Assembly: GCA_019454125.1 (NCBI GenBank)
Contig: CP075365.1
Span: 248,001-312,000 of the forward strand
Direction: 5' to 3'
From: Fimbriimonadaceae bacterium
Lineage (GTDB): Bacteria > Armatimonadota > Fimbriimonadia > Fimbriimonadales > Fimbriimonadaceae
Length of the DNA: 64,000 nt
In this document: one piece after another, positions 22,164-25,530 of the stretch
Numbering within the stretch: position 1 is the stretch's first letter
How the letters are laid out: the number at the start of each line of letters is the position of its first letter
Notes under the pieces: model-generated
What the model was told of the DNA's origin: nothing
Databases searched by the model: none
The model's input: only the letters and a program-made list of their open reading frames with translations
Position numbers and translations under genes: made by a program

Positions 22164-23267
22164 TTAGGCCAGGGTGGCCACGACTTCGTTGTGGAGAAGT
22201 CGGCCCTTCGGCGTCAGCCGGAGCCTGCCTTCGGAAAGCTCGCCCCAACCCGCGGCCAAAACCCTTTCCAGCGCCTTCGGTCGCAGGCCGAGCGGCGCGG
22301 TCTCCAGCCCCGAATTGAGCCGCAAACCCAGCATCAAGCGTTCGAGCCGCAGGGTAGGGTCGTCCACCGACTCCTCTTCGCAGGCGAGGGGCTGCCGCGT
22401 CTCGACCCGCTCGCAGTAAGCGGCCGGGTGCTTCGTGTTCGTTTGGCGCAGGGAGCCCACACGGCCGACCGCCCCTGGGCCATAGCCGACGTACTCCTCC
22501 GCCCGCCAATAGGCCAGGTTGTGGCGGCACTCCCGCCCGGGCCGAGCGAAGTTCGAGATCTCGTACTGGGCGAGGCCCGCCTCCTCGCAGGCGGCTACGG
22601 CCTCCTCGTACATGGCGACCTGGCGGTCCTCGTCCGGCAAGTCCAGCATGCCACGGAGCTGGTAGCGGTAGAACCGGGTGTTCGGCTCGATCGTAAGGCA
22701 GTAGAGGCTCAAGTGCTCAGGCGCCATCGCCAGCGCAAGCTCCAAGTTGCGACGCCAACCCCGGAGGCTCTGGCCGGGCAACGCGAACATCAGGTCCAGG
22801 TTCAAGTTCTCAAACCCGGCCTGGCGGGCCGCGTGGACGGCACGCCCCACATGCCCAGGCTCGTGCACCCGGCCTAGTTGGACCAGGTCTGAGGTGTCAA
22901 ATGATTGAGCGCCGAGGCTGATCCGGTTGAACCCGGCCTGGCGCATCGCGGCGAACTTGCCCGCGTCCACCGTGCCGGGGTTGGCCTCGCTCGTGATTTC
23001 GCAGTCCGGGGCGAAGGGGTGGGCCTCGCGAACCGCATCCAGGATCCGCGCCAACTGGGAAGCTTCGATGAAGGTCGGCGTGCCGCCGCCGAAGAAGACG
23101 GTCTTCGCCGGGCGGCCCCGGTGGGGGCTCCCCGCGACCTCCGCCACGATCGCGTCGACCGTCCTCGGCACGATCTCCCCCGAGAGGGCAAAGGAATTAA
23201 AGTCGCAGTACCCGCACTTTGACGGGCAGAAGGGGATGTGCACGTAGATGGCGACGGGCTCACTCAT
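22164..23267 (-). CDS. hemW: HemW-like radical SAM protein
   Basis: The 367 residues begin MSEPVAIYVHIPFCPSKC. The radical-SAM cluster motif is CPSKCGYC (Cx3Cx2C), followed by FGGGTPTFIEASQLARIL and SEANPGTVD, as in the HemN/HemW family. HemW is a heme chaperone, often misnamed oxygen-independent coproporphyrinogen oxidase. It has the HemW form CxxxCxxC rather than the extra Cys of true HemN. The ATG at 23267 overlaps the stop of the small gene upstream (ATGAGTGA), so the two are probably translationally coupled. Confidence 0.93.
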   Translation of the reverse strand: MSEPVAIYVHIPFCPSKCGYCDFNSFALSGEIVPRTVDAIVAEVAGSPHRGRPAKTVFFGGGTPTFIEASQLARILDAVREAHPFAPDCEITSEANPGTVDAGKFAAMRQAGFNRISLGAQSFDTSDLVQLGRVHEPGHVGRAVHAARQAGFENLNLDLMFALPGQSLRGWRRNLELALAMAPEHLSLYCLTIEPNTRFYRYQLRGMLDLPDEDRQVAMYEEAVAACEEAGLAQYEISNFARPGRECRHNLAYWRAEEYVGYGPGAVGRVGSLRQTNTKHPAAYCERVETRQPLACEEESVDDPTLRLERLMLGLRLNSGLETAPLGLRPKALERVLAAGWGELSEGRLRLTPKGRLLHNEVVATLA

Positions 23268-23433
23268 GGCGAGCCGAGAGCACCGCGACCAGGCCGAGGA
23301 CGGCCCCAAAGATAACCGGCACCGCCGGTTGGCGCGAAGAGATTCACCCCGTCTTGCAAGACATCATCCAGAGCGAGTACAGCCAGCCCGCGCCGCCTCC
23401 CAGCGCCATGCCGACAAGAGCTTTCAAAACCAT
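23260..23433 (-). CDS. Candidate selenoprotein: small two-helix membrane protein with in-frame TGA
   Basis: From ATG 23433 the frame reads MVLKALVGMALGGGAGWLYS, then LWMMSCKTG, then TGA (23344-23346). It continues in the same frame as ISSRQPAVPVIFGAVLGLVA plus VLSARHE to a TGA at 23260-23262, inside the hemW start. Read through, this is a 57-residue protein with two membrane helices and a Cys-Lys-Thr-Gly-X loop. From memory the layout resembles the DUF6132-type family (GA-rich helix, C-x-S-G-x-C-P loop, GAxxG helix), whose second Cys would fall at the TGA. Thirteen nt past the TGA is a perfect 7-bp hairpin with a GGU loop. The alternative is a nonsense-mutated gene. Confidence 0.5.
23314..23330 (-). 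promoter_or_regulatory. Candidate SECIS-like hairpin
   Basis: On the minus strand AACCGGC-GGT-GCCGGTT forms a perfect 7-bp stem with a GGT triloop. It begins 13 nt after the in-frame TGA (23344-23346), and the loop begins 20 nt after it. Known bacterial SECIS elements have a G (often GU) in a small apical loop roughly 16-37 nt after UGA. The bulged U of the E. coli element is not seen. Confidence 0.4.
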
Positions 23434-23472: not shown

Positions 23473-25530
23473 CTACATTCGGGACGGTGCGCTCACCCCG
23501 AGCAGTTCCAGCGCGGCCCGCAGCGCCGTCCGCGCGGCCACACAATAGGCCAGTCTCCGCTGGGTGGTCTGGAGGTCGTCTGCATTGATGACCCGGCACG
23601 TGTCATAGAAGCCGTGGTAGGCCCTCGCGAGTTCGATCGCGTAGGTCGCGAGGCGGTTCACGGCATAGTCCTCGGCGCTTCGCTCGATCTCATAGGGCAG
23701 GTCGAAAGCCTTCAAGAGCAGGGCCCGCTCCTTCGGGTGGAGTTCCGGAGCCCCTTCGATATCGGTCGGCTGCGGCCCTTGCCCCGAAGGTGGGGAGGCG
23801 GCTGGGGGCGGGGCGATGCCAGCCTCCGCCGCCTTGTCGATCACTCCCGTGATCCTCGCGTGGGCGTATTGCACGTAGAAGACCGGGTTCTCGTCGCTCT
23901 GCTTCTCAGCCAGGTCAAGGTCGAAATCGAACGTGGTGTCGTGGTGGCGCATCAGGTAGAAGAACCGGGCGACGTCCTTCCCGGCCTCGAGCTGCTCGGC
24001 CTCGGGCGCATCGGGACGCACCTTCTGGCCGATCTCTTTCACCAGGTCGATGAGGGCATAAATGTTGCCGTCGCGCTTGCGCATGGGGGCGGGCTTTCCT
24101 TCCTTCAGGAATCGGACGAGTTGGAAGATCACGACCTCCAGGCGCTCGTCGCTGAGGGAGCGGGCGGCGCGGCATTGGTCGCGGCGCGCAGCTGTGCCAT
24201 AGAGCTGCGCCTCCCAGTCGGCCAGCCCCTGCTCGGCCAAGGTGTCCCCTCCCCCCGACCCCCTCCCCAAGCTTGGGGAGGGGGAGAGGCCTGCCATCAG
24301 GTTGGCCGCGACCACGGCGTGGAGCCGGTTGACATAGCCGTGGTGGTCCGGGCCTAGCACGGTGATGAGCTTGTCCGCGTCGGAGGGACGGTTGAACTTG
24401 TCCTTGTGATAGGCGACGTCGCTGGCGATATAGGTCAAGCGGCCGTCGGCCCTCCGCAGCACGCGGTCCATGTCGTCCCCAAAGAGGGTCGATCGCAACC
24501 ACAGCGTCTCCCTGAGCCCCTCCATTTCGGCCTGGACAGGATCGTGCCCCGCAGGGCTCAGGGGCGGAGCCTCGCCTTCGTCGTCGAGCACCGCCGTCGT
24601 CTGGACCTCGAACTCGACCTCCTCGACTTTGCCCCCCTTGCCAAGCTTCAGCTTCGTGCGGACGGGACGCTCGTCGGCGACCCCCGAGGCTTCCAACCCC
24701 GCCACACACCGCGCCACCTCGCCGCTCTCGTGCAGCGACTGCTCGCTGAACCAGGTGTCGAACTCAACGCCGAAGGTGGTCAGGTCGGCGTGCTGGCGCT
24801 TGAGCATCATATCTTGGGAGATGGTCTGCCAGGCCCCGTCGGGAACCGGTACATCTTTCAGCCGGTCCGCGACTTCTTGGACATAGTCGCCGCGATACCC
24901 TTTCTGGGGAAACGGCGTGCCCGTCGCCAATGACCGCACCGACTCGGCGAAGAGCCGCATCTGCTCGCTGTTCACGCCGTCGTTGATGTAGTACTCCCGG
25001 TGCACCTCGTTCCCGCTCGCCTGCAACACGTTGCAGAGGGCCGATCCATAGGCCGCCCCGCGTCCCGAGCCGATCGTGATCGGGCCGTTGGGGTTGACCG
25101 AGACGAACTCGACGTTGATCCTCTGGCGGGTGGCGGCCGGGCGGGCGAAGTGGGAGGGGTCGGCCAAGACCTGGCGGTCCTGCGAGGCGAGCACGGACTG
25201 AATCTGGCCCGCGAAGACCAGGTCGGCCAAGAAAAGGTTCACGAACCCAGGCCCCGCGACCTCGACCTTCGCGAACTCCGGGAGCTCGGCCAGGGCCTCG
25301 ACGAGGAGGGCGGCCAGCTCTCGAGGGTTGGCAGGGGCGGCCGTCCCTGCCGCGTTCTCCTTCACCTGCTTCACCGCGACCATCGCCCAGTTCGTGGCAA
25401 AGTCGCCGTGGGCCGGGTCCTTTGTGTCCTGGACCTCAGGGTCCGGATAGTCCTCCGAAGGAAGCTTGCCCCCGGAAACCAGGCGGTCCAAGGCGGTGCG
25501 GAGCAGACGGGCGACTAGAGAACGAAGCAC
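23473..25530 (-). CDS. argS: Arginyl-tRNA synthetase with extra insertions
   Basis: ArgRS charges tRNA-Arg. The 685 residues are about 100 more than usual. Visible parts are the N-terminal additional domain (about 1-110), the HIGH region NPNGPITIGSGRGAAYGSAL (about 149-168, both His replaced), LGPDHHGYVNRLHAV, the degenerate KMSK segment PMRKRDGN, and the anticodon-binding DALR domain with C-terminal YDTCRVI. Three low-complexity inserts interrupt it: LDDEGEAPPLSPAGHDP, GLSPSPSLGRGSGGGDTLAE and IAPPPAASPPSGQGPQPTD. The second is encoded by a 26-bp palindrome. The start is GTG 25530. The gene is otherwise intact. Confidence 0.93.
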   Translation of the reverse strand: MLRSLVARLLRTALDRLVSGGKLPSEDYPDPEVQDTKDPAHGDFATNWAMVAVKQVKENAAGTAAPANPRELAALLVEALAELPEFAKVEVAGPGFVNLFLADLVFAGQIQSVLASQDRQVLADPSHFARPAATRQRINVEFVSVNPNGPITIGSGRGAAYGSALCNVLQASGNEVHREYYINDGVNSEQMRLFAESVRSLATGTPFPQKGYRGDYVQEVADRLKDVPVPDGAWQTISQDMMLKRQHADLTTFGVEFDTWFSEQSLHESGEVARCVAGLEASGVADERPVRTKLKLGKGGKVEEVEFEVQTTAVLDDEGEAPPLSPAGHDPVQAEMEGLRETLWLRSTLFGDDMDRVLRRADGRLTYIASDVAYHKDKFNRPSDADKLITVLGPDHHGYVNRLHAVVAANLMAGLSPSPSLGRGSGGGDTLAEQGLADWEAQLYGTAARRDQCRAARSLSDERLEVVIFQLVRFLKEGKPAPMRKRDGNIYALIDLVKEIGQKVRPDAPEAEQLEAGKDVARFFYLMRHHDTTFDFDLDLAEKQSDENPVFYVQYAHARITGVIDKAAEAGIAPPPAASPPSGQGPQPTDIEGAPELHPKERALLLKAFDLPYEIERSAEDYAVNRLATYAIELARAYHGFYDTCRVINADDLQTTQRRLAYCVAARTALRAALELLGVSAPSRM
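24259..24284. repeat. 26-bp perfect palindrome inside argS
   Basis: CCCCCTCCCC-AAGCTT-GGGGAGGGGG is perfectly self-complementary around AAGCTT. It lies in frame within argS and encodes the SPSPSLGRG insert. The sequence type resembles the C/G-rich hairpins between genes at 4409 and 46796. Confidence 0.85.

Follow-up and report, generated by a model that had tools for sequence, protein, structure and literature searches.

An in-frame TGA in a small gene upstream of hemW

A short open reading frame that overlaps hemW in the genome of a Fimbriimonadaceae bacterium is interrupted by an in-frame TGA, and the question raised by this locus is whether that codon ends a peptide or encodes selenocysteine (Sec). 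The frame lies on the minus strand of the window, by which we mean the whole 64,000-nucleotide stretch of DNA that was analysed, and runs from an ATG at 23433 to a TGA at 23260, with the internal TGA as codon 30. Its translation is MVLKALVGMALGGGAGWLYSLWMMSCKTG-U-ISSRQPAVPVIFGAVLGLVAVLSARHE, where U marks the internal TGA, located immediately 3′ of the codons for SCKTG. The initial annotation had described exactly such a frame, meeting TGA after Ser-Cys-Lys-Thr-Gly and then continuing into a second hydrophobic helix, and both translation and helix prediction bear this description out. The features of the locus are as follows.

23260..23433, minus strand: candidate selenoprotein gene, 57 residues plus a TGA stop, with predicted Sec as residue 30 (homologues are conserved on either side of the TGA)
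23344..23346, minus strand: TGA at codon 30, the putative Sec codon (TGA or a Cys codon in homologues, tracking selA)
23356..23358, minus strand: Cys26 codon, the presumed resolving Cys of a C-x-x-x-U arrangement (most Sec homologues have a single partner Cys)
23359..23430, minus strand: predicted membrane helix 1, residues 2-25 (hydrophobicity and AlphaFold2, modest confidence)
23269..23325, minus strand: predicted membrane helix 2, residues 37-55 (hydrophobicity and AlphaFold2)
23314..23330, minus strand: stem-loop of the bacterial SECIS (bSECIS) type, AACCGGC-GGT-GCCGGTT, 7 bp, loop at 23321-23323 (conserved in Sec genes)
22164..23267, minus strand: hemW (radical SAM, HemN_C), overlapping the candidate selenoprotein gene by 8 nt
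23473..25530, minus strand: argS-like gene upstream (the same gene is upstream in about 15 loci)

Both predicted helices consist of hydrophobic sequence; AlphaFold2, at a mean pLDDT of only 68.5 for the 57-residue protein, places them at residues 2-25 and 37-55, with residue 30 in the intervening loop. Codon-position counts from pooled pairs of homologues reveal third-position bias on both sides of the TGA, but this bias is weak in the closest pair and we place no weight on it.

The terminal TGA (23262-23260) had been described as overlapping the hemW start codon. The two genes do overlap, by 8 nt and in different frames, but the TGA itself does not lie on the ATG (23267-23265), which begins 5 nt upstream of the stop. 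The name of the argS-like gene is provisional, being given by homology rather than by a family search. This gene carries GC-rich, palindrome-like stretches that seem to be inserted in frame (window positions 24240-24290 and 23790-23830, minus strand; for example LSPSPSLGRGSGGG). A simple pattern search found no copies of the stretch within the window, and selD contains a stretch that resembles these palindromes.

The genome encodes the machinery for selenocysteine

The Sec reading of codon 30, as put forward in the initial annotation, presupposes selA, selB, selC and selD, and all four were found in the complete genome, a single contig of 2.65 Mb. SelA is matched at E = 2e-114 and SelB at 360 bits, above the curated cut-off, and tRNA-Sec scores 78 bits and has the anticodon UCA. 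SelD is present with an in-frame TGA of its own (LVACAG-U-ASKLG, at the U-x-x-K site), and by sequence it appears itself to be a Sec protein; UGA is therefore very probably read as Sec elsewhere in this genome as well. We also observed in selD (L068, about 1480-1660; G000:C1 near 888060-888206) a 7-bp hairpin, GGCCGAG-GTC-CTCGGCC, about 33 nt past the UGA.

TGA and cysteine codons alternate at one position

When 101 related genomes were searched in six frames, most members of the family proved to have the gene, almost always with one TGA, and a profile search of 291 Armatimonadota genomes extended it to many bacterial families. A narrower profile returned eight named loci, mostly from Fimbriimonadaceae and Fimbriimonadales MAGs. 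A close homologue also occurs in a record labelled as a Methanoregulaceae archaeon (L092), a label that is probably a binning error. After the loci were read, the comparison set comprised 82 members, all from the phylum Armatimonadota. At the column of interest 65 of these 82 have TGA and the other 17 have Cys; no other replacement was seen.

The state of this column follows the Sec machinery closely, with selA present in 63 of the 65 Sec genomes versus one of the 17 Cys genomes (Fisher p = 6e-14, a value that overstates independence because the genomes are related). Three genomes (G036, G255 and G049) are exceptions to this rule, and the two TGA genomes that lack selA are assemblies with a completeness of only 74% and 85%. 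In G049, a genome that retains selA, the Cys-type member (L035, 305-475) has a loop whose spacing is altered (CTVGCQQGPAVP). Within-genus switches are the safer and stronger argument: Sec and Cys states coexist inside five genera (g4, g6, g19, g21 and g31), and the exchange must therefore have occurred repeatedly rather than by a single inheritance. Homologues thus have TGA or Cys precisely at the site, with Cys nearly confined to genomes without selA, and the sequence downstream of the TGA is conserved across dozens of genera with no sign of decay.

A hairpin at bacterial SECIS spacing is conserved in the Sec genes

Bacterial SECIS elements have been delimited as stems of 4-16 bp with loops of 3-9 nt, a G in the first two loop positions and a spacing of 16-37 nt (PMC13188914). 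The window hairpin falls within these limits, with 7 bp, a GGU loop and a spacing of 20; its stem begins 13 nt 3′ of the TGA and its loop lies 20 nt 3′ of it. Counting only perfect stems of at least 5 bp with a 3-nt loop exactly 20 nt past the UGA, the hairpin occurs in 32 of the 36 Sec genes and in none of the 12 Cys genes of a set centred on Fimbriimonadales (p = 3e-8), and it is missing even from Cys genes that retain the PAVP residues it encodes. Its usual form in the Sec genes is CCGGC-GGU-GCCGG, the loop being mostly GGU. The C-G pair that closes the loop is replaced by U-A in two genera (L016 and L024), and outer stem pairs vary too, on both sides.

The fold of this one RNA sequence taken alone is not significant (z = -0.66), and hairpins of at least 7 bp arise at an allowed position in 0.35% of synonymous shuffles. 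Across genomes, shuffling with window codon usage predicts 2.7 hairpins among 35 genes, versus 31 of 35 observed. It is because of this conservation, and not on account of single-sequence energy, that we regard the hairpin as exceeding chance. The element proposed in the initial annotation is thus confirmed as to size, loop and spacing, and in addition it is retained among the Sec forms but missing among the Cys forms. A hairpin at spacing 20 is not kept in the distant members outside Fimbriimonadales.

These data bear on two readings in which codon 30 is not Sec. A lone in-frame TGA in a single genome could well be a nonsense mutation, and the energy of the hairpin is by itself unremarkable, so that the TGA might simply terminate a gene in decay or might end a functional 29-residue N-terminal peptide. 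Yet the TGA recurs at one column in 65 genomes from many families, with conserved sequence beyond it, and is replaced by Cys codons in genomes that lack selA; we consider a nonsense mutation next to impossible and reject the pseudogene reading because the downstream half is conserved and because of how Sec and Cys are distributed. The downstream frame would be kept equally well if UGA were translated as another residue, either through near-cognate readthrough or through a general reassignment of the stop codon. Such decoding would not account for Cys being the only replacement in homologues, for the way in which the TGA tracks selA or for a hairpin of bSECIS geometry, and the candidate gene's own terminator is TGA, which hence acts as a stop elsewhere. 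We judge these possibilities scarcely more probable than a mutation, and reject both on the homologue data. With the machinery, the TGA/Cys homologues, the conserved downstream half and the hairpin all in its support, decoding of UGA-30 as Sec is almost certain.

A single partner cysteine lies on either side of Sec

The initial annotation envisaged a CxxxU redox loop, which is indeed what the window protein has, although most members of the family have UxxC or UxxxC and the upstream arrangement is a minority form. Of the 65 Sec proteins, 63 have exactly one loop Cys near Sec: it is upstream in 17 and downstream in 46, and no protein has one on both sides. The partner is located 3-7 residues upstream or 3-4 residues downstream of Sec, the latter giving U-x-x-C or U-x-x-x-C. 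Two Sec members (G013 and G074) are without a partner, and Cys residues outside the loop pair are nearly absent (3 of 2454 residues). One partner on either side but never both points to a two-residue, selenenylsulfide-forming redox pair, and no other observation argues as strongly for such a centre as this mutual exclusion. From these patterns we strongly infer a Sec/Cys redox pair held in a hairpin of membrane helices, a conclusion in which our confidence is high.

Relation to known protein families

Searches of Pfam and NCBIfam assign the window protein to no family, DUF6132 (PF19628) at its curated cut-off included. However, 12 of 14 distant members match DUF6132 at E values of up to 0.1, at least one of them above the cut-off: the Sec member G254 (CAGGG-U-PMTSNP) scores 31.7 bits, the cut-off being 23.2. 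When the profile of the window's group is compared with that of the distant set by hhalign, the probability is 98.3 and E = 2.4e-14. The resemblance to DUF6132 suggested at the outset consequently holds transitively through intermediates, but not directly. Like the window's family, DUF6132 proteins have two helices, about 60 residues and a Cys-bearing loop; the window protein differs in lacking the CP and SNP residues, in a loop one residue shorter and in having predicted Sec in place of Cys. In our view the window's family represents two-helix proteins of a DUF6132-like kind in their Sec form.

A 2026 catalogue lists 119 prokaryotic selenoprotein families and subfamilies (PMC13188914), and nothing of this kind occurs among them or in NCBIfam. 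Selenoproteins of the UxxC/CxxU type (thioredoxin-, glutaredoxin- and DsbA-like) likewise combine Sec and one nearby Cys with Cys orthologues and a bSECIS, but the window's family has two membrane helices and no thioredoxin fold, and its partner Cys can precede or follow Sec. One catalogued integral membrane selenoprotein is the YeeE/YedE thiosulfate transporter (PF04143, GUxSG) (PMC13188914), which is much larger and with which no homology is shown. A PDB sequence search with the distant profile gave no convincing solved relative, a Cys-type distant member used as query had no match in plasmids, and the open-licence literature yielded no paper joining Armatimonadota or Fimbriimonas with selenocysteine. 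The family is almost certainly a real selenoprotein family, and one that has apparently so far gone uncatalogued.

Gene neighbourhoods and a possible function

Close coupling to hemW had also been proposed. Within the window's family this holds: hemW is the next gene downstream at 29 of the 48 loci, at a distance of up to about 65 nt, and all 29 belong to that family; it is not a universal rule, in that distant relatives have other neighbours, and the link may be mere operon position. Whereas the window's own family has hemW as neighbour and not thioredoxin or OsmC, OsmC is the next gene in f5, a family of the same taxonomic order, and follows or lies near the gene in f10, f16 and f35. Thioredoxin precedes the gene in f8 and f35 and follows it together with TrxB in f13, and FmdB-type zinc ribbons adjoin it in four families. 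A neighbourhood of OsmC, thioredoxin and an FmdB-type zinc ribbon recurs in several Armatimonadota families (L040, L041, L046, L057, L053 and L103-L106). Two of the neighbouring thioredoxins have an anchor-like or lipoprotein-like N-terminal segment, which hints at a periplasmic loop; other thioredoxins are without it.

The explanation that we favour as a whole, and hold to be very likely, is a two-helix inner-membrane selenoprotein with a Sec30/Cys26 redox couple. SelB and Sec-tRNA(Sec) would insert Sec at UGA-30, guided by the hairpin with its G-rich loop 20 nt downstream, and the 57-residue product would span the inner membrane with its two helices, Sec30 and Cys26 lying in the short loop that connects them. 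The selenolate would attack an oxidised substrate, which could be a hydroperoxide, a reactive sulfur species or a disulfide; Sec would then be joined to the Cys by a Se-S bond, and a reductant of the thioredoxin type would regenerate the pair. Cys would take the place of Sec once the Sec machinery had been lost. That the chemistry concerns peroxides or thiols at the membrane and is linked to thioredoxin and OsmC is suggested by gene neighbourhoods, and we offer it tentatively, at somewhat less than an even chance.

A selenoprotein without redox function is a weaker contender, in which Sec or Cys would bind a metal or carry a small substrate, such as sulfide, thiosulfate or heme-related cargo for HemW, within a small membrane assembly. 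The very small, two-helix form of the protein and the adjoining hemW in 29 of 48 loci speak for such a role, and metal- or sulfur-handling transporters, among them YeeE/YedE and a Cu/Zn efflux family, are found among catalogued selenoproteins (PMC13188914). However, this proposal leaves unexplained why there is exactly one partner Cys that changes sides, and why thioredoxin and OsmC are neighbours in other families, and the hemW link is missing beyond the window's family; we therefore consider it unlikely, though to be taken seriously. The redox reading can be extended, more speculatively, to a phylum-wide membrane selenol relay, in which small two-helix proteins assembled in the inner membrane would link their Sec/Cys pair with the chemistry of thioredoxin and of OsmC (hydroperoxides), the resolving Cys being evolutionarily mobile across Sec. 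We regard this relay as possible but doubtful.

If such a relay exists, it would be among the smallest membrane redox centres. The finding adds a selenoprotein family that spans much of the phylum, that is unusually small and membrane-bound, and that standard gene-calling software cuts short or overlooks. The clean exchange of Sec and Cys with gain or loss of selA, together with the swapping of the partner Cys, provides natural experiments for asking what makes a protein retain Sec and in what way a resolving cysteine changes place, and DUF6132, a family of unknown function, gains a redox function that can be tested.
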